From Cafeteria roenbergensis (taxonomy: Eukaryota > Sar > Bigyra > Bicosoecida > Cafeteriaceae), in NCBI GenBank assembly GCA_008330645.1, contig VLTN01000014.1, positions 1 through 64,000 of the forward strand: a DNA stretch of 64,000 nt, in the 5' to 3' direction. The notes below the pieces were generated by a model. That model worked only from the letters and a program-made list of their open reading frames with translations. It did no database searches and was not told the origin of the DNA. Positions 1 through 16,583 of this stretch are shown one piece after another (positions within the stretch are counted from its first letter, which is position 1; each line of letters begins with the position of its first letter). The translations under genes and the position numbers were made by a program.

Positions 1-5
1 TTCAT

Positions 6-3000
6 TCAAGTCCAACAGGGGGCGTGCGTCAAGGCGACCCGGCAGCGGCGCACTGTTTGCGATCGCAGTGCACCCCCTGGTGGACGAGGTGAGGCGCGCC
101 TTCCCAGATGTGCTCATCTTGCAGATGGCCGACGACACGACGCTCGTGGGCCCGAGGAGGAGCGCCTTCAAGGCAGCCCAGATGCTGGCCGAGCGGCTCA
201 GCACGGTGGGGCTGCGGATGAACACCAGCAAGACCCAGGTGCTGTGCAAGCGAGGACAGCTCGAGAGAACCAAAGCCAGAATTCGGCGGGAGATGAAGCG
301 GAGTAGGGACGATCCAGGGTCCCCACCCTCGGTGCTGGAGGGGTGCCACCTCACCGAACGGAGCGTGGCGGTGCTGCAGTGTCCTGTGGGGGAGGAACTC
401 CCGCCGGAGGTGGCACTTGAGCACTCGATGAAGCGACTGGAGAAGGAGTTCGGGCCGGCCGCGGAGCGCCTGCTCGCGGGCATCGAGGTCTGCGGGCTCA
501 AGCGGGCGCACCACCTGCTGCTGTCGGTGGTGGGCCAGAAGTTCAGCTACCTGCACAGAGCAGCGGGTGCGGCGGCGGGCCAGGAGCTGGCGGTGTTCCA
601 CGCGGCGCTGCTGGCCAACCTGTCGGCGGTGGCGCACAAGACGGAGCTGGATGCGATCGGCCACGCGCGCTCTCGGACGAGATGTGCACGGTGACCGAGG
701 ACGGCTTCCGTGAGGCCATGTCCAAGGCCATCGAGGCGCTTGTTCGGGGGCTGCCGGACGAGCACGCAAGGCGGGAGGCGTGGTGGGCGCTCCTGGGCCG
801 GGAAGCCGACGGTGTGACTCGGCTCGCATCGGCAGCGTCCAACCCGGCCTTGAAGAAGGGAGGCTACGCTCAGATGAGGCTGGCAAAGATGCTGAGCAAG
901 GGCTGCAAAGCCGGGGGCATGGGCCTGCCTGGCGTGGCGCAGTTCCGCTTCGAGGCGACAGCGGGCTTCATCGAGGCCGTTCGGGACATGCGGAAAGGGC
1001 GGTTCGAGATGGCACCACCGCCGGAGGAGGCCCTCGACGGACCCGGCACTGGTGGAGGCGGAGGCGAAGCGGCGTCGGGGAGTGGTGCCGGAGCGGGACC
1101 AGCCAACGCCGGCGAGGCGGAAGCGGAGGATGAGTCGGGTGCGGCGGCTGCTGCAGCGGGCGGCACGCCGTGGGTGGACCACCCGGCGGTCGGAGAGAGC
1201 GAGTCCAAGGAGGACTGCGAGGAGGGGCCGGCGCACGGGCAGCAGCTTGCAGGTACGCTGGACGGCTGGCTCGTCAGCGGTACGGGGGGAGCGGCTGAAC
1301 CGGGGCATCAGCCAACACCGACAAGCGGAGGCCAGACGGTCGGCGGAGGTGCGGCTGCCGCCAGCGCGGCGGGAGCGGCGACCGAGATGACGACGAGCGG
1401 CGGCGGCGCAGCGGCAGCTAGTGCGGCTGGCGCTCCAACCGGCCAAGAGACATCTGATGCCGCACAGCCGAGAGCGGATGCGGCACAGGTCTACTCGGTC
1501 AGGCGAACGCCGGCGATCGGGTTGGCCAGGGACGGACCCGACGCGGACGCGGACGGCAACGACCCCAACTGGAAGGGCATCTCGCTCAAGAAACTCGTGA
1601 GGAGCTCGCTGAAGCGCTCAGACCGCAGCGATGCGACCAAGGAGGTGGGCGACATCCTGCTGCGATGCGAGGAGGTCGCCAAGGGAGCCTACCGGGACTA
1701 CGAGCGGGACAGCAAGGAGTACAAGGACGCCTGCACCGAGGCACGGTACTTCAGGCCGGACAAGGACTGCGTCGTGGGCAAGGAGGCCGACCTTCATGAC
1801 GCCAGGGTGAAGAAGCGCTACCAGCTGGCGCACGTGTGGAGGTCGGACATCGCGGGGGCTGTCGAGGGCCTGGAAGAGCTGCGCGCCGAGATCGAGGAGC
1901 TGGCGCTGGAGGCGATGATGGAGCTCAGATCTGACGACGAGTCGTCGGATGACATGGAGGCAACTGCAAACCTGGTGGAGGAGTTCATCAGGGCATGCAA
2001 GGGAGCCCGCTGCCTGGCCGCAGCGACAGGGTTCGAGGGCTTCTTGCCCGACACCCTGGGTAAGCTGCCGGGCGAGCTGAAGGCCAAGCTCCGCAAGTGC
2101 CTGTACGGCGACGGGGTGACGGCGCGGGCGAACGAGCAGACCGAGGCGCCCTGGCAGCGCAAGATGGTGCTGCACCACGACGACATGCTGCGCATCAAGC
2201 ACGAGTGCGCCTTCCTGCGCCGGCTGGCCAAGGCGCGCAGGGCCTGCACAGCACGCTGCAGGGCCGAGGCGCTGGCCAAGGGCACACGACGGAGAAGCGT
2301 GTCGCCAACATCGACGACCCGGCCATGTTCCGCGTCATGAGCGACCTGGTCGCGTTCCGGGAGGCATGCGTGCCGGGAACACACTACTGGCTCCGCAACA
2401 CGATGATGGGACCCCGCGGGCTCACGGACGAGGAGTTTGCGGTGGTGGAACGCTACCGCATCGGAGCCTCCGAGGCCGACCACGTGGTGCCGGACGGCGT
2501 GTCGATCAACTGCGCGTGCGTGCAGGGGGACACCACGGCGAGAGGCACCGTCCACATCGGCGGGGTCTCCGGCGTGGCACACCACCTGGCGCGTTGCCGC
2601 TGCGGCAAGGGCTCCACCATCCGGGCGCACAACGACGTCCGCGACGTCCTGCACGCGGCGGTACGCTCGGCGGGGCTGCAGTCGGTGGTGGAGCCCTCCA
2701 GCTGGCAGGACGGTCAGGCGCGCTTCGGGATCCCAGCCGGGGTCCAGCGAGGCCGCGCGCAAGCGACCGGACCTGCGGGTGCACGTCGACTTCGAGACCA
2801 CCCGTCTCGTCGACGTGCAGATCACCTCGGCGGTGAGCAAGTCCTACGTGACGCAGGGCCTGCAGAACATGGACGCCTTTCTCGAGCGCCGTGAGAATGA
2901 CAAGATGAGGGAGTACAAGAAGAGCTCAGCTACAAAGGACAACATGAGCTCCATTGTGCCCTTCGTCATCACGACCACGGGACGCATGGGACCGGCGGCC

Positions 3001-3364
3001 TTCGCCTTCCTCAAGAAGGTGGCGGACACGGCCTTCGGCGACCGGCCGAGGGAGCGTGCGCGCTGGGCCTTCCGCTGGCTGTCGAGGCTGAACGAGGTCA
3101 TCGCCAAGGGACTGGCGACCCAGCTGATCGGGCAGACGCAGTACCTGCGACAGCAGGTGGAGCGTTTGCGGTGAGCAGGGGCGGCTGAGTGGCGACTCGA
3201 GGCAGTGTGATGGCAGGGATCTGGGATTTGAGACTTGGGATTGTGGGTTTGGCGCGGTTTGTGACTCATTGGTGATGGAGTTGCTGGATTGGTGATTGGT
3301 GAGTCTGTGAATCGAGTGTGTGGTATGGTTACGCGAGTTTTCGACCCCCCCCAACGATGTTCAT
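6..3364 (+). mobile_element. Non-LTR retrotransposon copy A (5'-truncated, frameshifted)
   Basis: This is a 5'-truncated copy of the same element as the intact-frame copy at 4142-7495. It starts in the middle of the reverse transcriptase, just before the GVRQGDP motif, and runs through the endonuclease, a stop at 3172-3174 and a ~190-nt 3' tail ending in CCAACGATGTTCAT. Compared with the copy at 4142 it carries a compensated single-base pair of indels near 19 and 47, a 2-base insertion near 666, a 2-base insertion near 2285 and a 1-base insertion near 2730. The reading frame is therefore split into blocks at about 14-666, 667-2285, 2286-2730 and 2731-3174, and the copy is a pseudogene. The window opens on TTCAT, the end motif of a preceding copy, so the array continues to the left. 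Confidence 0.85.
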
Positions 3365-3969
3365 CAAGCGACCGGACCTGCGGGTGCACGTCGACTTCGA
3401 GACCACCTGTCTCGTCGACGTGCAGATCACCTCGGCGGTGAGCAAGTCCTACGTGACGCAGGGCCTGCAGAGCATGGACGCCTTTCTCGAGCGCCGTGAG
3501 AATGACAAGATGAGGGAGTACAAGAAGAGCTCAGCTACAAAGGACAACTTGAGCTCCATTGTGCCCTTCGTCATCACGACCACGGGACGCATGGGACCGG
3601 CGGCCTTCGCCTTCCTCAAGAAGGTGGCGGACACGGCCTTCGGTGATCGGCCGAGGGAGCGTGCGCGCTGGGCCTTTCGCTGGCTGTCGAGGCTGAACGA
3701 GGTCATCGCCAAGGGACTGGCGACCCAGCTGATCGGGCAGACGCAGTACCTGCGACAGCAGGTGGAGCGTTTGCGGTGAGCAGGGGCGGCTGAGTGGCGA
3801 CTCGAGGCAGTGTGATGGGAGTGATCTGGGACTTGAGACTTGGGATTGCGGGTTTGGCGCGGTTTGTGATTCATCGGTGATGGAGTTGCTGGATTGGTGA
3901 TTGATGAGTCTGTGACTCGAGTATGTGGTATGGTGACGCGAGTTTTCGACCCCCCCCAACGATGTTCAT
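3365..3969 (+). mobile_element. Retrotransposon copy B (severely 5'-truncated)
   Basis: This short copy begins abruptly at the codons for KRPDLRVHV, the catalytic core of the endonuclease, directly after the TTCAT terminus of copy A. It stays in frame to the stop at 3777-3779 and carries the usual 3' tail. The tail ends in a C-run and AACGATGTTCAT at about 3969. The junction has no spacer, poly(A) or obvious target-site duplication. The first nucleotides CAAGCGACCGG match copy A at 2759 onwards, so this is an independent 5' truncation point. Confidence 0.85.
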
Positions 3970-3990
3970 CCTAAATCTAACCCTAACCCA
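3970..3990 (+). repeat. Interstitial telomere-like repeat at a retrotransposon junction
   Basis: About 21 bases sit exactly between the 3' terminus of copy B and the 5' truncation of copy C. They hold two perfect TAACCC units preceded by imperfect CCTAAAT and CTAA units. The C-rich strand is the + strand, as expected of a left chromosome end. This is the only stretch of the array that is not retrotransposon-derived. It is read as a remnant of a chromosome end captured between two insertions; that is inference, since the tract is short. Confidence 0.7.
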
Positions 3991-4141
3991 AGTGATCTGG
4001 GACTTGAGACTTGGGATTGTGGGTTTGGCGTGATTCGTGATTCATCGGTGATGGAGTTGCAGGATTGGTGATTGATGAGTCTGTGAATCGAGTGTGTGGT
4101 ATGGTGACGCGAGTTCTTGACCCCCCCCCAACGACGTTCAT
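3991..4141 (+). mobile_element. Retrotransposon copy C (3' tail only)
   Basis: Only the last ~150 nt of the 3' untranslated tail remain, from AGTGATCTGGGACTTG to the terminal C-run and AACGACGTTCAT. It follows the telomere-like tract directly and is followed without spacer by copy D. Confidence 0.8.
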
Positions 4142-7100
4142 TCAAGTCCAACAGGGGCGTGCGTCAAGGCGACCCGGCAGCGGGCGCACTGTTTGCGATC
4201 GCAGTGCACCCCCTGGTGGACGAGGTGAGGCGCGCCTTCCCAGATGTGCTCATCTTGCAGATGGCCGACGACACGACGCTGGTGGGCCCGAGGAGGAGCG
4301 CCTTCAAGGCAGCCCAGATGCTGGCCGAGCGGCTCAGCACGGTGGGGCTGCGGATGAACACCAGCAAGACCCAGGTGCTGTGCAAACGTGGACAGCGCGA
4401 GGAAACGAAGGCCAGAATTCAGCGGGTGATGAAGCGGAGTAGGGACGATCCAGGGTCCCCACCCTCGGTGCTGGAGGGGTGCCACCTCACCGAACGGAGC
4501 GTGGCGGTGCTGCAGTGTCCTGTGGGGGAGGACCTCTCACCGGAGGTGGCTCTAGAGCACTCGATGAAGCGACTGGAGAAAGAGTTTGGGCCGGCGGCGG
4601 AGCGCCTGCTCGCGGGCATCGAGGTCTGCGGGCTCAAGCGGGCGCACCACCTGCTGCTGTCGGTGGTGGGCCAGAAGTTCAGCTACCTGCACAGAGCAGC
4701 GGGTGCGGCGGCGGGCCAGGAGCTGGCGGTGTTCCATGCGGCGCTGCTGGCCAACCTGTCGGCGGTTGCGCACAAGACGGAGCTGGATGCGATCGGCCAC
4801 GCGCTCTCGGACGAGATGTGCACGGTGACCGAGGACGGCTTCCGTGAGGCCATGTCCAAGGCCATCGAGGCGCTTGTTCGGGGGCTGCCGGACGAGCACG
4901 CAAGGCGGGAGGCGTGGTGGGCGCTCCTGGGCCGGGAAGCCGACGGTGTGACTCGGCTCGCATCGGCAGCGTCCAACCCGGCCTTGAAGAAGGGAGGCTA
5001 CGCTCAGATGAAGCTGGCGAAGATGCTGAGCAAGGGCTGCAAAGCCGGTGGCATGGGCCTGCCTGGCGTGGCGCAGTTCCGCTTCGAGGCGACAGCGGGC
5101 TTCATCGAGGCCGTTCGGGACATGCGGAAAGGGCGGTTCGAGATGGCGCCACCGCCGGAGGAGGCCCTCGACGGACCCGGCACTGGTGGAGGCGGAGGCG
5201 AAGCGGCGTCGGGGAGTGGTGCCGGAGCGGGACCAGCCAACGCCGGCGAGGCGGAAGCGGAGGATGAGTCAGGTGCGGCGGCTGCTGCAGCGGGCGGCAC
5301 GCCGTGGGTGGACCACCCGGCGGTCGGAGAGAGCGAGTCCAAGGAGGACTGCGAGGAGGGGCCGGCGCACGGGCAGCAGCTTGCAGGTACGCTGGACGGC
5401 TGGCTCGTCAGCGGTACGGGGGGAGCGGCTGAACCGGGGCATCAGCCAACACCGACAAGCGGAGGCCAGACGGTCGGCGGAGGTGCGGCTGCCGCCAGCG
5501 CGGCGGGAGCGGCGACCGAGATGACGACGGGCGGCGGCGGCGCAGCGGCAGCTAGTGCGGCTGGCGCTCCAACCGGCCAAGAGACATCTGATGCCGCACA
5601 GCCGAGAGCGGATGCGGCACAGGTCTACTCGGTCAGGCGAACGCCGGCGATCGGGTTGGCCAGGGACGGACCCGACGCGGACGCGGACGGCAACGACCCC
5701 AACTGGAAGGGCATCTCGCTCAAGAAACTCGTGATGCGGGCGCTGAAGCGCTCAGACCGCAGCGATGCGACCAAGGAGGTGGGCGACATCCTGCTGCGAT
5801 GCGAGGAGGTCGCCAAGGGAGCCTACCGGGACTACGAGCGGGACAGCAAGGAGTACAAGGACGCCTGCACCGAGGCACGGTACTTCAGGCCGGACAAGGA
5901 CTGCGTCGTGGGCAAGGAGGCCGACCTTCATGCCGCCAGGGTGAAGAAGCGCTACCAGCTGGCGCACGTGTGGAGGTCGGACATCGCGGGGGCTGTCGAG
6001 GGCCTGGAAGAGCTGCGCGCCGAGATCGAGGAGCTGGCGCTGGAGGCGATGATGGAGCTCAGATCTGACGACGAGTCGTCGGATGACATGGAGGCAGCGG
6101 CAAACCTGGTGGAGGAGTTCATCAGGGCCTGCAAGGGAGCCCGCTGCCTGGCCGCAGCGACAGGGTTCGAGGGCTTCTTGCCCGACACCTTGGGCGTGCT
6201 GTCGGATGACCTGAAGGCCAAGCTCCGCAAGTGCCTGTACGGCGACGGGGTGACGGCGCGGGCGAACGAGCAGACCGAGGCGCCCTGGCAGCGCAAGATG
6301 GTGCTGCATCACGACGACATGCTGCGCATCAAGCACGAGTGTGTCTTCCTGCGCCGTCTGGCCAAGGCGCGCAGGGCCTGCACAGCACGCTGCAGGGCCG
6401 AGGCGCTGGCAAAGGGCACGCCGGAGAAGCGTGTCGCCAACATCGACGACCCGGCCATGCTGCGCGTCATGAGCGACCTGGTCGCGTTCCGGGAGGCATG
6501 CGTGCCGGGAACGCACTACTGGCTCCGCAACACGATGATGGGGCCCCGCGGGCTCACAGACGAGGAGTTCGCGGTGGTGGAACGCTACCGCATCGGAGCC
6601 TCCGAGGCCGACCACGTGGTGCCGGACGGCGTGTCGATCAACTGCGCGTGCGTGCAGGGGGACACCACGGCGAGAGGCACTGTCCACATCGGCGGGGTCT
6701 CCGGCGTGGCACACCACCTGGCGCGTTGCCGCTGCGGCAAGGGCTCCACCATCCGGGCGCACAACGACGTCCGCGACGTCTTGCACGCAGCGGTGCGCTC
6801 GGCGGGGCTGCAGTCGGTGGTGGAGCCCTCCAGCTGGCAGGACGGGCAGGCGCGCTTCGGGTCCCAGCCGGGGTCCAGCGAGGCCGCGCGCAAGCGACCG
6901 GACCTGCGGGTGCACGTCGACTTCGAGACCACCCGTCTCGTCGACGTGCAGATCACCTCGGCGGTGAGCAAGTCCTACGTGACGCAGGGCCTGCAGAGCA
7001 TGGACGCCTTTCTCGAGCGCCGTGAGAATGACAAGATGAGGGAGTACAAGAAGAGCTCAGCTACAAAGGACAACTTGAGCTCCATTGTGCCCTTCGTCAT

Positions 7101-7305
7101 CACGACCACGGGACGCATGGGACCGGCGGCCTTCGCCTTCCTCAAGAAGGTGGCGGACACGGCCTTTGGTGACCGGCCGAGGGAGCGTGCGCGCTGGGCC
7201 TTTCGCTGGCTGTCGAGGCTGAACGAGGTCATCGCCAAGGGACTGGCGACCCAGCTGATCGGGCAGACGCAGTACCTGCGACAGCAGGTGGAGCGTATGC
7301 GGTGA
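4142..7305 (+). CDS. RLE-type non-LTR retrotransposon polyprotein, 5'-truncated
   Basis: An open frame of about 1,050 codons has no native start; an ATG at 4117 lies in the tail of the previous copy and is fortuitous. Order of parts: reverse transcriptase motif 4 (GVRQGDPAAGALF), the catalytic ADD in ILQMADDTTLV (Met in place of the usual Tyr), thumb and connector, a long Gly/Ala-rich linker (about 5150-5620), a conserved helical region, a Cys/His cluster (CACVQGD, then HHLARCRCG) and the endonuclease signature RPD followed 14 residues later by D. The R/K-PD-X(12-14)-D pattern after a Cys/His knuckle is the hallmark of the restriction-like endonuclease of R2/CRE/NeSL/R4-type elements, which nick DNA and prime reverse transcription at the target. 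The missing N-terminal half (reverse transcriptase motifs 0-3 and any DNA-binding domain) makes this copy incapable of autonomous movement. Confidence 0.85.
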
Positions 7306-7495
7306 GCAGGGGCGGCTGAGTGGCGACTCGTGGCAGTGTGATGGGAGTGATCTGGGACTTGAGACTTGGGATTGTGGGTTTGGCGCGGTTTGTGACTCAT
7401 CGGTGATGGAGTTGCTGGATTGGTGATTGGTGAGTCTGTGAATCGAGTGTGTGGCATGGTTACGCGAGTTTTCGACCCCCCCCAACGATGTTCAT
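4142..7495 (+). mobile_element. Retrotransposon copy D (5'-truncated, frame intact)
   Basis: This is the best-preserved copy. It keeps the second half of the reverse transcriptase, a long linker, the endonuclease and the complete 3' tail (7306-7495). The tail contains several near-repeats of GTGATGGAG/GGTGATTGGTGAGTC and ends in ACCCCCCCCAACGATGTTCAT-like sequence. Its left junction (TTCAT then TCAAGTCCAACAGG) is the same as that of copy A at position 1, so the two share a breakpoint. No promoter or 5' UTR is present. Confidence 0.85.
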
Positions 7496-7884
7496 TCATT
7501 GACCCCTGGGACCGGCGGCCTTCGCCTTCCTCAAGAAGGTGGCGGACACGGCCTTCGGCGACCGGCCGAGGGAGCGTGCGCGCTGGGCCTTCCGCTGGCT
7601 GTCGAGGCTGAACGAGGTCATCGCCAAGGGACTGGCGACCCAGCTGATCGGGCAGACGCAGTACCTGCGACAGCAGGTGGAGCGTATGCGGTGAGCAGGG
7701 GCGGCTGAGTGGCGACTCGTGGCAGTGTGATGGGAGTGATCTGGGACTTGAGACTTGGGATTGTGGGTTTGGCGCGGTTTGTGACTCATCGGTGATGGAG
7801 TTGCTGGATTGGTGATTGGTGAGTCTGTGAATCGAGTGTGTGGCATGGTTACGCGAGTTTTCGACCCCCCCCAACGATGTTCAT
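7496..7884 (+). mobile_element. Retrotransposon copy E (5'-truncated) with short filler
   Basis: After the TTCAT terminus of copy D there are about 10 unmatched bases (TCATTGACCCC). Element sequence then starts at TGGGACCGGCGGCC, in the 3' part of the coding region, and runs through the stop near 7692 and the tail to TTCAT at 7884. The filler is the kind of small insertion often seen where target-primed reverse transcription ends. Confidence 0.8.
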
Positions 7885-7983
7885 TCATCGGTGATGGAGT
7901 TGCTGGATTGGTGATTGGTGAGTCTGTGACTCGAGTGTGTGGCATGGTTACGCGAGTTTTCGACCCCCCCCAACGATGTTCAT
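7885..7983 (+). mobile_element. Retrotransposon copy F (last ~100 nt)
   Basis: A stub of the 3' tail begins at TCATCGGTGATGGAG and ends in the C-run and AACGATGTTCAT. It is joined head-to-tail to copy E on its left and copy G on its right. Confidence 0.8.
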
Positions 7984-8247
7984 GCAGTATATGGCGTCTG
8001 ACGCGCAGCTGAGAGCGGATGCGGTGCAGGTGTACTCGGCGGGGGGGACGCAGACGATCGGGATGGCCAAATGCGTGACGCAGGGCCTGCACAGCATGGA
8101 CGCCTTTCTCGAGCGCCGTGAGAATGACAAGATGAGGGAGTACAAGAAGAGCTCAGCTACAAAGGACAACATGAGCTCCATTGTGCCCTTCGTCGTTACG
8201 ACCACGGGACGCATGGGACCGGCGGCCTTCGCCTTCCTCAAGAAGTT
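7984..8247 (+). mobile_element. Retrotransposon copy G (internally deleted, 3' end lost)
   Basis: The segment starts with codons matching the linker region of copy D (near 5590-5670: AQ..ADA.QVYS). It then jumps at about 8070 to the region after the endonuclease (CVTQGL..SMDAFLERREND) and stops inside FAFLKK at 8247. It is therefore internally deleted by about 1.3 kb relative to copy D and is the only copy in the array without the 3' terminus. Unrelated sequence that forms an inverted repeat follows. Confidence 0.75.
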
Positions 8248-8251
8248 GGCT

Positions 8252-8868
8252 GTCCGGCAACGCCTCCGATTCGCCCTGGTGCGTGTGATCGTAAGGGATG
8301 GTGATCACGCATCCAGCAGTGGCCAAATGGGCACCCGTTAGGAGTCCGGCGCCAGCAGGCTAGGAGTGGCAGTGCCTTGCTCGGAGTCTGCACCCACAGG
8401 GGCACTGAAACCTCGCAAGCCACCTCCCAGCCTGCCGCGGGATGGGCGGGCGGGCCACGAATGCGGATTTTCTCTCTCGCACAACCTCAAAGCCGACCGC
8501 GACGGGCCCTGGAGTGCTGTGCGAACGTTCGCACGGCACGGACGGCAAAGCGAAGCGCCCGATGCGCACGCAAACCTGGAGAGCTGCTCGTCCTGGCCGC
8601 CAAAGTACGCGGGCAGACCAGAGATCGGGACCCTTAGGGTCAAGCTGGGGGCACCGCAAGCACGCTGCGGGCAAGCCGCGTAACCCAACAAAGCGTCGAG
8701 ACGATGCCAGGCGGCTCGTCTGCTTGTCGTCTCCGAGCAAGGCACCGCCACTCCGAAACCGCTGGCGGCGGACACCTAACAGGTGCCCATTTGGCCACTA
8801 CCGGATGCGTGATTACCATTCCCTACGATCACACGCACCAGGACGAATCGGAGACGTTGCCGGCTAGA
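8252..8868. repeat. Inverted repeat 1 (arms 8252-8386 and 8731-8868)
   Basis: The two arms of about 135 bp are imperfect reverse complements. For example, CCAAATGGGCACCCGTTAGG at 8322 pairs with CCTAACAGGTGCCCATTTGG at 8776, and the CGATTCGCCCTGGTGCGTGTG block pairs with its counterpart near 8830-8850. The ~345-bp centre has no recognisable coding content. It may be a foldback element or an inverted duplication; no terminal target duplication was identified. Confidence 0.75.
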
Positions 8869-8914
8869 CTTTGTTTGTGCTGTCTTGTTTCTGGTTGGCA
8901 GAGTGGAGGCGAGA

Positions 8915-9595: not shown

Positions 9596-9690
9596 GCAAG
9601 TGTGTGGTATGGTGACGCGAGTTTTTGATCCCCCCCAACAATGTTCATTCCCAACTATGTTCATTCTCTCCCAACGATTTTCATTCAAGC
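9596..9690 (+). mobile_element. Isolated retrotransposon 3' tail (copy H) with iterated terminus
   Basis: GTGTGTGGTATGGTGACGCG followed by a C-run and AACAATGTTCATT reproduces the last ~45 nt of the element. The terminal motif is then repeated in degenerate form: CCCAACTATGTTCATT and CCCAACGATTTTCATT. It marks the right-hand limit of recognisable retrotransposon sequence and lies just beyond the 3' end of the ankyrin gene. Confidence 0.7.
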
Positions 9691-9703: not shown

Positions 9704-12700
9704 TCAGCTCCGTGCCGCCTTAGCCGCCCTGACCAACGCTTGTGTTCGCACCCACAGCGTCAAGGTGCGGCGGCGGTGCCATCGCTGGCGCTGCTCGGCA
9801 ACGAGGAGCACTTCGGTACAGGAAGCGCTCGTGCACATGGCCAGCGCGTTGTTGCCAGCCTGCGTTCGGGGACACCTACCATCGTGCAAAGCAATAGCTG
9901 ACGAGGCTTTCATCACTGCTATCATCTCGCACGGCAAAGGCCAGGGGCAGGGCCTAAAGCCTGGGTAGCTCTGGTTCCAGCGCGCCTCATGCCCAGAGTG
10001 GGACCAATTCGCGGAGGACTGAGCAGGCTATAAGAATTTGGGCAGGCTCACATTGTTCTTGGCCTCCAGGTCGGCGCCCCGGTCCAGCAGTAGCTCCACC
10101 ATGTCCTTGTGGCCACGCCGTGCCGCTGCAACAAGAGCCGTTGCACCATACTGCGACGCCACAGGCCCGCATGTCACCTCACGTCGTCGCACCATCGCCT
10201 CCCTGCTAACGTCTCACCCCGCCACCGCCGCCTCCCTCGCCGGCCTGCCACAGGAGCACGACGCGCCGACGCATCACAGCCGTCGCCGCGCCCCGGTACC
10301 CGCCCGTGGCACCCGGCGTGGCCCGTCGCGAAGCAACACACGGCCGCCGCACTCACGCGGTCCTTGGCCTCCAGGTCGGCGCCGCGGTCCACCAGCAGCT
10401 CCACCGTGGCTTTGTGACAACGCCATGCTGCCGCAACAAGCGCCGTAGCACCGTTCTGCGACGTCGCAGGCCATCGCGTCACTGCACCTCGCCGCACCAT
10501 CGCTCCCCTGCTGACGTGCCACCCAGCCACCGCCGCCTCCCTCGCCGGACCGCGATGGCAGCAAGACGCCCCGACGCATCATCGCCACCGCCACCCCATA
10601 GCCTGTCCGTTATGCCTGGCGAGCCCCGTCGCGCAGCAACACACGGCTGCCGCACTCACGCGGTCCTTGGCCTCCAGGTCGGCGCCCCGGTCCACCAGCA
10701 GCTCCACCGTGGCCATGTGACCACGCCATGCTGCCGCAACAAGCGCCGTAGCACCGTTCTGCGACGTCGCAGGCCATCGCGTCACTGCACCTCGCCGCAC
10801 CATCGCTCTCCTGCCGACATGCGCCCACCAAGCACCGCCTCCCACGCCGGCCCGCAATGGCAGCAAGACGCCCCGACGCATCACAGCCATCGCCGCGCCT
10901 CGGTACCCGCCCGTGGCACCCGGCGTGGCCCGTCGCGAAGCAACACATGGCCGCCGCACTCACGCGGTCCTTGGCCTCCAGGTCGGCGCCGCGGTCCAGC
11001 AGCAGCTCCACCGTGGCCATGTGGCCACGCCATGCTGCCGCAACAAGCGCCGTAGCACCGTTCTGCGACGTCGCAGGCCATCGCGTCACTGCACCTCGCC
11101 GCACCATCGCTCTCCTGCCGACATCGCCCCCCGCCACCGCCGCCTCCCTCGCCGCACCGCGATGGCAGCAAGACGCCCCGACGCATCACAGCCATCGCCG
11201 CGCCTCGGTACCCGCCCGTGGCACCCGGCGTGGCCCGTCGCGAAGCAACACATGGCCGCCGCACTCACGCGGTCCTCGGACTCCGGGTCGGCGCCCCAGC
11301 CCACCAACAGCTCCACCGTGTCCTTGAGGACTTGCCAGGCAGACCGAACAAGCGCCACAACGAAGTGCTGCAACGTCGAACAACACAGCACCTGATCCAC
11401 CATCGCCCCTCTGCTGACGTCCCACCCCGCCACCGCCACCTCCCTCGCCGGCGCGCGATGGCAGCACGACGCCCCGACGCATCGCCACCATCGCCACATT
11501 CCGTGCCCGCTCGTGGCATCCGGCGCGGCCTGTCGCGAAGCATCACATGGCCGCCGCACTCACGCAGTCCTGGGCCTCCAGGTAGGCGCCGCGGTCCAGC
11601 AGCAGCTCCACCATGTCCTTGTGGCCACGTCGCGCTGCCGCAACAAGAGCCGTTGCACCGTACTGCAACGTCGCAGGCCTTCACGAAACAGCAACTCGTC
11701 GCACCATCGCTCCCCTACCATCATCGCCCCCCAGCCAGCGCCGCCGCGCACGACGGCCTGCGACGGCAGCACGACGCCCCGACGCAGCATCGCCATCGCC
11801 GCCCCCCCTGGCCGGCCCACGACGCCCGGCGCGGCACGTCACGCAGCAACACACGGCCGCCGCACTCACGCAGTCCTTGGCCTCCAGGTCGGCGCCCCGG
11901 TCCAGCAGCAGCTCCACCGTGTCCTTGTGGCCACCGGATGCAGCTCGGGTAAGCGCTGTAGAGCCATCCTGCGACGTTGCAGGCCCGCATGTCACCGCAC
12001 CTCGTCGCACCATCGCTCCCGTGCTGAAGTCCCACTCGGCCAGCGCCGCCTTCAAACAGGCACGCGATTGCAGCACAACGCCCCGCCGCACCATCGCCAT
12101 GCTGCACTCCCCACCCGCCCGTGGCTCCCGGCTCGGTCCGTCGCGCAGCAACACACGGCCGCCACACTCACGTAGCCCTTGGCCTCCAGGTCGGCACCCC
12201 GGTCCAGCAGCAGCTCCACCATGTCCTTGTGGCCATGGTACGTAGCTTGGAATAGCGCCTTAGCGCCAGCCTGAGTTGTCGCAGGCGCGCACGTCACCGC
12301 ACCTCATCGCACCATTGCTCCCCTGGTGGCATCGCCCCCGCCAGCGCCGCCTCCCACGCCGGCAGCGTGCTTTGCTGCACCACCCCCCGACGCATCACCG
12401 CCATTGCCGCACCCTCCGTGCCCGCCTAAATCGCCCGTCGCGCAGCAACACACGGCCGCCACGCTCACGTAGCCTTTGGCCTCCAGGTCGGCGCCGCGGT
12501 CCAGCAGCAGCTCCACCGTGGCTTTGTGGCCATCGTACATAGCTCCAAGAAGCGCCGTTGCACCACACTGCGATGTCGCAGGCCATCGCGTCACCGCACC
12601 TTGTCGCACCATCGCTCCCCTGCTGACGTCCCAACCCGCCAGCGCCGCCTCCCACGACGGCCTGCCACAGCAGCACGACGCCCCGACGCATCGCCGTCAT

Positions 12701-15700
12701 CGCCACATCCCCGTACTCGCCCGTGGCACCCGGCTCGGCCCGTCGCGCAGCAACACATGGCCGCCGCACTCACGCAGTCCTTGGCCTCCAGGTCGGCACC
12801 CCAGTCCAGCAGCAGCTGCACCGTGTCCTTGTGGCCACGGGACGCGGCAAGACCAAGCGCCGTAGCCTCACCCTGCGAGGTCACAGGCCCGCACGTCACC
12901 GCACCTCATCGCGCCATCGCTCCCCTGCTGACGTCGCCTCCAGTCAGGGCCGCCTCCCACGCCGGCAGCGTGCTTTGCTGCACCACGCCTCGACACATCG
13001 CCGCCATTGCCGCACCCCCGGTGCCCGCCTCAAACGCCCGTCGCGCAGCAACACACGGCCGCCACGCTCACGTAGCCTTTGGCCTCCAGGTCGGCGCCGC
13101 GGTCCAGCAGCAGCTCCACCGTGGCTTTGTGGCCATCAGATGCGGCTGCAACAAGCCCCGTCGCGCCATGCTGCGACGCCGCAGGCCCGCACGTCACCGC
13201 ACCTCGTCGCACCATCGCCCCCCTGTTGACGTCCCACCCCGCCACCGCCGCATCCCACGCCGGCCTGCCACAGCAGCACGACGCCCCGACGCATCATCGC
13301 CATCACCACACCCCTGTACTCGCCCGTGGCACCCGGCATGGCCCGTAGCGTAGCAACACACGGCCGCCACACTCACGCGGTCCGTGGACTCCAGGTCGGC
13401 CCCCCGGTCCAGCAGCAGCTGCACCGTGTCCTTGTGGCCACGCCGTGCAGCCGCAACAAGAGCCGTTGCACCGTACTGCGACGTCGCACAACATATCAAT
13501 TCGTCGCACCATCGCCCCCCTGCTGACGTCCCACCCCGCCACTGCCGCCTCGCAAACAGGCACGCGATGGCAGCACGACGCCCCCACGCAAACCGCCAAT
13601 ACTGCGCCCCACGCCCGTCCGGCCACAACACCCGGCGCGACCTGTCGCGCAACATCACACGGCCGCCGCACTCACGTCGTCCTTGCCGTCCAGGTCGGCC
13701 CCCCAGTCCAGGAGCAGCTGCACCGTGTCCTTGTGGCCAGCAAACGCCATCAGGACAAGCGCCGTTGCACCGCACTGCGACGTCACAGGCCCTCACGTCA
13801 CCGCACGTCGTCGCACCATCGCTCCCTTGCCGGCATCACCCCCTGCCAGAGCCGCCTCCCACGCCGGCCCTCGTCGAGAGCACGACGCCCCGGCGCATCA
13901 CCGCCACCGCCGCACCCCGGTACGCGCCCAGAACGCCCCGCGCGACCCGTCACGAAGCATCAAACGGCCGCCGCACTCACGTGGTCCTTGGAGTGCAGGT
14001 CGGCGCCTCGGTCCAACAGCAGATCCACCGTGTCCTTATGACCACGCCGTGCTGCTGCAACAAGAGCCGTTGCACCATACTGCGACGTCGCAGGCCTTGA
14101 CGTCACAGCTTCTCGTCGCACCATTGCTCCCTTGCCGGCCGGCGCCACCTCGCACGCCCGCCCGCGACAGCAGAACGACGCCCCAACGCATCTTCGCCAT
14201 CCCCGCCCTGCCCGCACGTACACGACGCCTGGCGCGGCCCGCCGCGCAGCATCACACGGTCGCCGCACTCACGCGGTCCTTGGCCTCCAGGTCGGCGCCC
14301 CGGTCCACCAGCAGCTCCACCGTGTCCTTGTGACCACGCCGTGCCGCCGCAACAAGAGCCGTTGCACCGTACTGCGACGCCGCGTGCCAGCACGACACCG
14401 CACCTCGTCGCGCCGTCGCTCCCCTGCTCGCATTCCACCCCGCCAGCGCGGCCTCCCACGCCGGTCTGCCAGCAGCACGACGTCCCGATGCATCATCGCC
14501 TTCGCCGCACCACGGTACCCGCCCGTGGCACCCGGCGTGGCCCGTCGCGAAGCAACACATGGCCGCCGCACTCACGCGGTCCTTGGCCTCCAGGTCGGCG
14601 CCGCGGTCCAGCAGTACCTCCACTGTTGCCATATGACCAACTTGAGCCATCAGAACAAGCGCCGTGGCACCGTTCTGCAATGTCGCAGGCCCTCACGTCA
14701 CCGCACCTCGTCGCACCATCGCTCGCCTGCTCACGTGCCCCCCCGCCAGCGCTGCCTGCCTCGCTGGCCTGCCACAGGGCCACCACGACCCGACGCATCA
14801 TCGCCATCGCTGCACTCCCCTCCCGCCCGTGGCACCCGGCGTGGCCCGTCGCGAAGCAACACACGGCCGCCGCACTCACGCGGTCCTTGGCCTCCAGGTA
14901 GGCGCCCCGGTCCAGCAGCAGCTCCACCGTGTCCTTGTGGCCATGGTACGTAGCTCGGAAAAGCGCCGTACCGCCAGCCTGAGTCGTCGCAAGCCCGCGT
15001 GTCACCTCACGTCGTCGCACCATCGCCTCCCTGCTGACGTCACACCCCGCCACCGCCGCCTCCCTCGCCGGCCCGCGATGGCAGCACGACGCCCCGACGC
15101 ATCACAGCCATCGCCGCGCCCCGGTACCCGCCCGTGGCACCCGGCGTGGCCCGTCGCGAAGCAACACATGGCCGCCGCACTCACGCGGTCCTTGGCCTCC
15201 AGGTCGGCGCCGCGGTCCACCAACAGCTCCACCGTGGCCATGTGACCACGCCATGCTGCCGCAACAAGCGCCGTAGCACCGTTCTGCGACGTCGTAGGCC
15301 AACGCGTCACTGCACCTCGCCGCATCATCGCTCTCCTGCCGACATCGCCCCCCGCCACCGCCGCCTCCCTCGCCGCACCGCGATGGCAGCACGACGCCCC
15401 GACGCATCACAGCCATCGCCGCGCCTCGGTACCCGCCCGTGGCACCCGGCGTGGCCCGTCGCGAAGCAGCACACGGCCGCCGCACTCACGCGGTCCTCGG
15501 ACTCCAGGTAGGCGCCCCGGTCCAGCAGTAGCTCCACCATGTCCTTGTGGCCACGCCGCGCTGCCACAACAAGCGCCGTTGCACCGTACTGCGACGTCGC
15601 AGGCCCGCACGGCACAGCAACTCGTCGCACCATCGCCCCCCTGCTGACATCCCACCTCGCCTGCGCCGCATCCCACGCCGGCCCGCAATGGCAGCACGAC

Positions 15701-16583
15701 GCCCCGACTCATCGCCGCCATCGCCGCGCCTCGGTACCCGCCCGTGGCACCCGGCGTGGCCCGTCGCGAAGCAGCACACGGCCGCCGCACTCACGCGGTC
15801 CTTGGCCTCCAGGTCGGCGCCCCGGTCCAGCAGTAGCTTCACCATGTCCTTGTGGCCACGCCGTGCCGCTGCAACAAGAGCCGTTGCACCACACTGCGAC
15901 GTCGAAGGCCCTCACGTCACCGCACCTTGTCGCACCATCGCTCCCTTGCCGGCATCGACCCCGCCTGCGCCGCCTCCCACGACGGCCCGCGATGGCAGCA
16001 CGACGCCCCGACGCATCATCGCCATCGCCACATTCCCGTTCCCGCCCGTGGCACCCGGCGCGCCCCGTCGCGCAGCAACACACGGCCGCGGCACTCACGC
16101 GGTCCTTGGCCTCCAGGTCGGCGCCCCGGTCCACCAGCAGCTCCACCGAGTCCTTATGACCACGCCGTGCTGCCACAACAAGCGCCGTAGCACCACCCTG
16201 CGAGGTCTCGTGCCTTCAGCAACCACAATCCACACGGCTCGCGACCGGCGCAACTTCACGCCAGTCACCGATCGGCAACCAGCAAGTCTTGCCACCGCCT
16301 TTGTCGCCCTCGCGCTCGACGGCCCCCACGCTGGCCCGCGCAGTCCGTGGCGCAGCAGCCCAACAGGTGAAAGAAAGGCACCACTCTGGTTGTATCACGA
16401 CCCATGCCCCCGCCAGTGAGCGGGGAGCGTGGCTTCAGTCGCAGTGCTCACAGCACGAGCGTTGTTCCAGTCCACCGGCGCGCCCTCATCGAGCAGCCTG
16501 CTGGCCTCAGCGGTGTTCCCGGCCCTCGTCGCCTCCCAGAGCGCGCTTGCCATTGCGCTTGCATCCACACGGAAGGTGGCCAT
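9704..16583 (-). CDS. Ankyrin-repeat protein, one repeat per exon (21 repeat exons)
   Basis: Exon 1 (16583-16452) encodes 44 residues starting MATFRVDASAM and includes a first degenerate ankyrin unit. Then come 21 exons of exactly 99 bp, phase 0, each one 33-residue ankyrin repeat of pattern xGATALxxAAxxGHxxxVELLLDRGADLEAKDR. Exon left ends are at 16099, 15795, 15490, 15185, 14880, 14576, 14273, 13981, 13676, 13377, 13072, 12774, 12469, 12172, 11870, 11564, 11269, 10964, 10660, 10357 and 10052. All donors are GTGAGT/C and acceptors are of the CGACGTCGCAG type. A final exon (9859-9704) adds 51 residues with a basic RWHRRR motif; its intron (192 bp) fits the others. Predicted length is 788 residues. 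If the last intron is retained, translation stops at 10028 and gives 744. There is no signal peptide or membrane segment. Ankyrin arrays are protein-binding scaffolds; the partner is unknown. Confidence 0.85.
10052..16197 (-). repeat. Tandem array of ~300-bp exon+intron units
   Basis: The coding exon (99 bp) and following intron (193-207 bp; 254 bp for the first intron upstream of the array) recur 21 times with a period of 292-306 bp. Introns share long blocks across the array, such as GATGCGTCGGGGCGTC and GTGCCACGGGCGGGTAC. The unit that amplified was therefore exon plus intron, not the coding repeat alone. Confidence 0.9.

Follow-up and report, generated by a model that had tools for sequence, protein, structure and literature searches.

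Inward-facing arrays of a non-LTR retrotransposon at contig ends of the Cafeteria roenbergensis assembly

Contig C14 (VLTN01000014.1) of the Cafeteria roenbergensis genome assembly (GCA_008330645.1) opens with an array of a retrotransposon that lacks long terminal repeats (non-LTR element). We analysed the first 64,000 nucleotides of this contig (C14:1-64000, hereafter the window). Positions 1-8250 form a head-to-tail array of seven 5′-truncated copies of this single element, all on the + strand. Elsewhere in the assembly, most copies of the element are found close to a contig end; their 3′ end is fixed and faces inward, whereas their 5′ ends are scattered. We consider it likely that the array is a chromosome terminus built by the element itself, which encodes a protein resembling a restriction-like endonuclease (RLE), through target-primed reverse transcription (TPRT) at the terminus, together with duplication of array units by recombination.

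Results

Copies were mapped to a reference copy of 7363 nt (the reference), itself an observed copy located at C28:428638-436000. The initial annotation had described at least seven same-orientation, 5′-truncated copies over positions 1 to 8247. All seven were recovered, at 8-8250 (copies A to G, Table 1), so that the array end was corrected to 8250, and a relic consisting of the tail only was found further in, at 9599-9648. Six of the seven copies have the same 3′ terminus, and the seventh is cut at 8250 by another repeat. One 5′ breakpoint is common to copies A and D, while the other five copies each have their own. The description of copies joined directly to the 3′ terminus of their left neighbour held for some joins; others carry a filler of 2-21 nt. 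The longest filler, CCTAAATCTAACCCTAACCCA at 3970-3990, contains the TAACCC telomere-like units that had been noticed there, with the C-rich strand on the + strand. To the left, where ordinary genes would be at odds with a terminal location, the contig begins inside the array: we interpret its first 7 positions (TTCATTC) as filler preceded by the last bases of the 3′ tail of an upstream neighbour, left at the contig end. At the right end of C14, an inward-facing copy runs off the contig. Chance is excluded as the source of the tails, because the 36.3 Mb contain 213 occurrences of the exact 17-nt tail and none of its reversed control.

The distribution of the element was examined over the whole assembly (36.3 Mb, 167 contigs), with contig ends standing in for chromosome ends. 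A protein search with the reverse transcriptase (RT) part gave 104 matches, which were merged into 64 copies. Counting only contigs of 100 kb or more (shorter contigs and C71, for which a length was lacking, being left out), 46 of 47 RT copies were no further than 20 kb from an end, and 45 of the 46 faced inward. An RT-copy fragment on C38 is internal, an exception to the end location. When a 3′ tail was used for a DNA search, 45 of the 48 scored matches faced inward; of the other three, two are on short contigs where the nearest end is ambiguous. For the exact 17-nt tails, position and orientation were taken from the first 100 listed of the 213 (those on contigs C1-C49 plus the first one on C50; for C48, a length was assumed on the basis of the neighbouring contigs, with no effect on the class of any tail), and all proportions of tails given below refer to these 100. 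Eighty-eight were within 25 kb of a contig end, as compared with 9.2% of the bases of the 33 contigs concerned, and 85 of the 88 faced inward. Inward tails were present at both ends of nine contigs. A copy is cut by the contig boundary at the right end of C14, at both ends of C17, and on C28, C51, C109 and C162. The proposal that copies sit at contig ends with their 3′ end inward is therefore upheld by both the tails and the RT copies. As to the strict confinement to ends that a genome-wide tail search might have given, most tails conform and the internal ones, on the whole older, do not. Copies in the opposite orientation near contig ends were seen at the C85 right end, the C10 left end and C46:294001, for which inversion, fusion or misassembly may be responsible.

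Joins between copies were surveyed in 79 sequence segments (306 kb). Among terminal copy segments with a visible 3′ end, this end was complete in 93 of 97, a count that sets aside 3 segments continuing into the same copy and 32 cut by the end of the stretch or contig. At 67 joins, the 5′ end of a copy abuts the complete 3′ end of its neighbour, with 0-34 nt of filler. The 5′ starts at these 67 joins occupy 53 distinct positions, from reference 1 to 7346. After the AACGATG of the tail, one TTCA unit was found at 44 of 87 distinct joins, two at 41 and three at 2; slippage at the start of reverse transcription may have generated this (TTCA)n.

In the first 20 nt past the tail, these 87 joins contain 39 telomere-like 5-mers on the C-rich strand and 0 on the other (shuffles: 15.7 ± 5.1, largest 36 in 2000). 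Telomere-like tracts of the polarity initially proposed are thus present, as short ones and at some joins; further ones are at joins on C4 and C11. A clean tract of three or four CCCTAA units is absent from the whole assembly. The only match in the genome to TAACC-TAACC-MAACC is TAACCTAACCCAACC at C7:5-19, at the contig start and with the right polarity (control 0). Outward of the arrays, the assembly stops inside copies at several ends, and C7 is the only contig with a telomere-like tract at its start. The lack of canonical telomere repeats may concern the assembly alone.

Close to its 5′ end, the reference carries about 19 copies of a 72-bp tandem repeat. Its open frame runs over 2390 codons within the copy (1823 aa from a chosen ATG), and is followed by a 190-nt 3′ untranslated region (UTR). 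The two copies that reach the tandem repeat (C28, C62) differ in their 5′ starts, which leaves the true 5′ end uncertain. The element had been annotated as RLE-type, an assignment that stood firmly for the non-LTR RT and in a qualified form for the endonuclease. The RT of the C17 copy matches PF00078 with an E value of 4e-21, and its best solved relatives are LINE-1 ORF2p (9.4e-5) and R2 (1.3e-4). In copy D, a 1065-aa open frame spans the C-terminal half of the RT, a linker and the RLE-like region, in which the elements of the RLE-type order C-terminal to the RT (RPD-x13-D, E, HN, H..C) are present. In RLE-encoding elements (CRE, R2, R4, NeSL, HERO), the order is CCHC and then RHD/N ... E ... 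R/KPD-x12-14-D/E. The strict CRE/SLACS pattern (PMC12857005) does not match, as the CCHC spacing differs and RAHN is found instead of RHN. With a pattern that we loosened ourselves, the motif occurs once in copy D and in 0 of 2000 shuffles.

Coding constraint was measured on 650 codons of the RT region in 27 spanning copies, drawn from the best RT matches. None of the 27 has a stop, and 5 have a one-base gap (insertions uncounted). The ratio of nonsynonymous to synonymous differences (pN/pS) was 0.31 over 378 pairs, the C28 copy being entered twice. Since stop-free, constrained copies are found among the best matches, we conclude that part of the family has been active under constraint.

Other searches on the element were negative. 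Structure prediction of the 301 C-terminal residues, made from the single sequence with no alignment, gave a mean pLDDT of 41 and was not used. No close relative of the window RT/RLE protein was confirmed in bacterial/archaeal and viral contigs, a protein query reaching close relatives only. The 3′ UTR gave no support for a conserved RNA structure (4 compensatory cells of 2623), and its minimum free energy was -54.3, against -57.9 ± 3.9 in shuffles. In the genome at large, PF00504 (light-harvesting) was also without a match, while one control genome did give one; the organism is therefore probably no photosynthetic alga. A literature search in open-licence papers, made without the organism name, returned no description of this element, from which we make no claim of its being unpublished.

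We then compared what lies inward of the arrays. Sixteen inner flanks from 15 contig ends have no common sequence at the join, as expected for end addition without sequence choice. These flanks are the innermost visible ones, not proven innermost; C11 (another copy after 32 nt), C55 (copy ending at reference 6244) and C22 (stretch too short) were left out. Some flanks fall in the same subtelomeric repeats, for instance those of C28 and C29, 8-17 nt apart. The flank at the right end of C14 belongs to a family of P-loop NTPase-like open reading frames (ORFs; 760 aa at C70). Element sequence also follows such ORFs at C70 and, in two places, on C46; the point of attachment there is not the one used at C14. 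The element seems to join onto many unrelated sequences. P-loop NTPase-like ORFs placed tail-to-tail with the 3′ end of the element were seen in stretches L126 (3-2282), L127, L128 and L039 (1-799).

The order of growth was approached through the median divergence of each tail from copies at other ends. The innermost tail was more divergent than the outermost at 12 of 17 ends, less divergent at 4 and tied at 1 (Wilcoxon p 0.044; within-end permutation p 0.053), an age gradient that weakly supports growth at the tip. Internal copies are on the whole older than terminal ones: the nearest-neighbour distance was 0.090 for 9 internal copies versus 0.007 for 77 terminal copies, and the median identity to the reference 93.0% (17 segments) versus 97.0% (132 segments).

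Discussion

In the mechanism that we favour, reverse transcription of the element RNA would start at its 3′ end (C-run, AACGATG, (TTCA)n), primed by the 3′-OH of the chromosome end or of an end produced by cutting or breakage. Each new copy would then have its fixed 3′ end inward, while its 5′ end would remain at the tip and be shortened there by incomplete synthesis and erosion. Before the next copy is added outside the previous one, a few irregular TTAGG(G)-like bases may accrue at the tip, presumably through telomerase or a similar activity. Repeated outward, such additions would contribute to the length of the chromosome end, and array units would also be duplicated by recombination. This mechanism fits the data because of the fixed inward 3′ end, the scattered 5′ ends, the end location, the single polarity, the unrelated inner flanks and the telomere-like filler. 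The element may, as first suggested, serve as an end-maintenance system; recombination also lengthens the arrays. With regard to telomerase itself, PF12009 and PF21399, searched as TERT profiles, had no match in the genome; introns were unmodelled and no control genome gave a match either, so that nothing firm follows.

Several observations weigh against terminal addition. Contig ends need not be chromosome ends, as repeats can also interrupt an assembly, and at some ends (C1, C7, C107) non-array sequence lies outward of the array. Twelve of the 100 tails are internal, 3 of the 88 near-end tails face outward (C10 twice, C46), and so does one RT copy at the C85 right end. Twenty-one terminal 5′ ends have no neighbouring 3′ end (40 more are cut by the stretch or contig end, and 4 are rearranged). 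Stops are present in 26 of the 104 RT matches, all of them weaker matches. Joins with a telomere-like 5-mer (13 of 87) are no more numerous than in shuffles (10.2 ± 2.8), which are exceeded by the total count and the strand bias only; the telomere-like signal therefore comes from few joins, chiefly on C14, C12, C22, C1 and C3. The pooled correlation between distance and divergence has the sign opposite to that of growth at the tip (rho -0.20, p 0.085). Finally, 2 of the 6 internal copies with both flanks have a possible 6-nt target-site duplication, not quite at the boundary, so that insertion at internal sites probably occurs at times.

Four other explanations were weighed. The arrays might result mainly from recombination (break-induced replication, unequal exchange) among subtelomeres that once gained the element, with retrotransposition being marginal. 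Recombination has left marks of the expected kind: on C55 (L109, L111), two truncated copies and their fillers of 10 and 7 nt form a unit that recurs in tandem, with its joins also found on C128 (L002); four C22 copies start at reference 7220; seven 5′ breakpoints recur among the 67; and copies A and D of the window have one in common. However, recombination cannot alone create new truncations joined to complete 3′ tails, and most 5′ starts are distinct, as reported above. The RT frame is moreover under purifying selection. As the main source of the arrays we find it unlikely.

A second possibility is insertion into ordinary telomere repeats by a sequence-specific endonuclease, in the style of MoTeR or SART/TRAS, most units being later lost from the chromosome or lost in assembly. 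The short CCTAA/CCCTAA-like tracts at joins on C14, C12, C22, C4 and C11, and at the start of C7, are in line with it; so is the single degenerate unit that the 5′ joins of FoTeR bear in most strains (PMC12857005). The same source places 3-7 TAACCC units after FoTeR 3′ ends, whereas no such tract is present among the 87 distinct joins listed. As the assembly has no run of three or four clean units, and as inner flanks differ between ends, we hold this explanation distinctly unlikely.

A main rival is self-targeting, in which the endonuclease would cut just past an existing 3′ terminus, so that a new copy is placed between the old copy and the inner flank, and arrays grow inward. The resulting join anatomy is identical. 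A paper on CNL1 of Cryptococcus mentions preferential self-insertion near telomeres as a report of earlier studies, and as a question that it leaves open (PMC12810828). The extra TTCA carried by half of the tails could be a duplicated target, and the pooled distance-divergence correlation also leans this way. Nevertheless, at least two TTCA units follow internal copies (6 of 11) as often as they follow terminal copies (37 of 76), for which reason we do not favour the TTCA repeats as a target-site duplication of self-insertion, and inner copies tend to be older, not younger, at the ends compared. Self-targeting alone explains neither the end location, nor the orientation, nor the telomere-like filler of one polarity, and we judge it quite improbable.

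An assembly artefact, with contigs broken at any dispersed repeat so that the element only looks terminal, is very improbable: the assembly does comprise 167 contigs, and copies reach the last base of several of them, but a dispersed repeat would meet ends in both orientations, against which the one orientation of the near-end tails argues, and the adjoining 305-bp repeat is itself mostly near ends and of one polarity among the matches listed, as judged by eye.

Chromosome ends stacked with retrotransposons are known from flies, Giardia and some fungi. The array found here is well supported as a terminal retrotransposon array. It is arranged like those of Giardia, CNL1, MoTeR/FoTeR or Drosophila, but its 3′ ends sit on sequence that varies and is mostly non-telomeric, and no telomere tract can be seen. 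Distinctive features are the 3′ ends joined to many unrelated sequences, the (TTCA)1-3 terminus, and the few short irregular CCTAA/CCCTAA-like tracts of the expected polarity. Two features shared with known systems are the inward 3′ ends in head-to-tail end arrays, and 5′ truncation with a fixed 3′ end, the signature of TPRT.

CNL1 of Cryptococcus neoformans, which is related to MoTeR, is likewise a non-LTR element forming subtelomeric arrays with truncated insertions (PMC12810828). Its full-length copies bear TAACCCCC-like repeats outward, whereas no outer telomere tract is assembled here, and its longest insertion is about 3.5 kb with an ORF of ~2.5 kb, compared with a reference of 7.4 kb and a 1823-aa ORF from the chosen ATG (PMC12810828). 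MoTeR of Pyricularia and FoTeR of Fusarium resemble the present element in being RLE-type, located at chromosome ends and found as truncated copies; in addition, MoTeR 5′ ends are nearest the chromosome end, and FoTeR has upstream tandem repeats (PMC7367193, PMC12857005). They differ in that telomere repeats are the insertion site of MoTeR, and 3-7 TAACCC units come after the 3′ ends of FoTeR (PMC12857005), whereas varied sequence, (TTCA)n and short filler are found here, and several TAACCC repeats follow the 3′ end at none of the 87 distinct joins listed.

GilM and GilT of Giardia form one-way head-to-tail arrays at ends, some of them 5′-truncated, between subtelomere and telomere repeats (PMC5537684, PMC10999387). 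Giardia ends carry telomere repeats, which is the difference; this likeness is drawn from the description, not from sequence. The HeT-A, TART and TAHRE elements of Drosophila form terminal TPRT arrays, head-to-tail, with the 3′ end toward the centromere (PMC5537684). These are reportedly never interior, in a genome where telomerase is absent (PMC5537684), whereas the present element is also found at internal sites. Furthermore, the present element has an RLE-like motif, and its 3′ end is a C-run followed by (TTCA)n, not poly(A).

A more far-reaching possibility, which we regard as doubtful, is that this lineage largely gave up canonical telomere repeats, and that the upkeep of its ends falls mainly to an RLE-type retrotransposon able to prime on any 3′ end of a chromosome, only short degenerate TTAGG-like patches having remained. 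If this were true, retrotransposon telomeres would have arisen independently of Drosophila, with a different endonuclease class. An element priming on arbitrary ends would also provide a non-fly system for the takeover or backup of telomere maintenance by a retrotransposon, in which one could test whether telomerase and element addition alternate at one tip. If they did, the telomere-like patches between copies would be a fossil record of this alternation.

Features of the window

Table 1. Features of the array and its inner border in the window (ref, reference copy).
Feature	Position	Strand	Description
Copy A	8-3364	+	ref 4009-7363, 5′-truncated, 97.2% identity to ref; frame split into several ORFs
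Copy B	3365-3969	+	ref 6759-7363; abuts the 3′ terminus of copy A, 0-nt filler
Telomere-like filler CCTAAATCTAACCCTAACCCA	3970-3990		C-rich strand on +; based on the sequence and on the strand bias over all joins
Copy C	3991-4141	+	ref 7214-7363, 91.4% identity
Copy D	4144-7495	+	ref 4009-7363; 5′ breakpoint as in copy A
Partial RT domain of copy D	4135-4395	+	PF00078, E 2e-10, residues 10-96, profile 111-194 of 205
RLE-like motif of copy D	6643-6945	+	C-x1-C...H-x3/4-C...R-x-HN...E...RPD-x13-D; loosened pattern, one occurrence
3′ UTR of copy D	7306-7495	+	190 nt, as in ref; ends in C-run, AACGATG, (TTCA)n
Copy E	7501-7884	+	ref 6980-7363; preceded by 5-nt filler TCATT
Copy F	7885-7983	+	ref 7265-7363 (99 nt)
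Copy G	7999-8250	+	rearranged, ref 5457-5527 joined to 6846-7022; lacks its 3′ end, where it borders on another repeat
Repeats common to contig ends C7, C44, C8, C10, C107	8251-9598		DNA matches; bounds the array
Isolated 50-nt tail relic, then two ultrashort tail-like units CCCAACNATGTTCATT	9599-9690	+	relic 9599-9648, ref 7314-7363; periods 16 and 20

The repeats that bound the array adjoin ORFs that, by eye, look like those of a tyrosine-recombinase (DIRS-like) retroelement. Inverted repeats at about 8256-8870 were considered as a possible DNA transposon; this candidate was dropped, as a tyrosine-recombinase element is indicated by the matches at C7, C44 and C8. Similar DIRS-like repeats, also typed by eye, were seen at several contig ends (stretches L084 1-3338, L093 1-1662 and L088 1-1612). 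The sequence lying outward of the array of C1 (C1:1521600-1533563; L105, L087) contains ORFs resembling, by eye, a retroviral-type integrase and capsid-like proteins, as in a Polinton/virophage-like element, and about 1.15 kb of it matches the C8 right end (L089) at 98.6%.

Further inward, the window contains a 305-bp tandem repeat in 20 copies (10058-16194), and then genes, for example for an ABC transporter and a glutamate-cysteine ligase. Among the matches listed, the 305-bp repeat also occurs further in on C4, C10, C12 and C55, and one of its strands reads by eye like ankyrin repeats.

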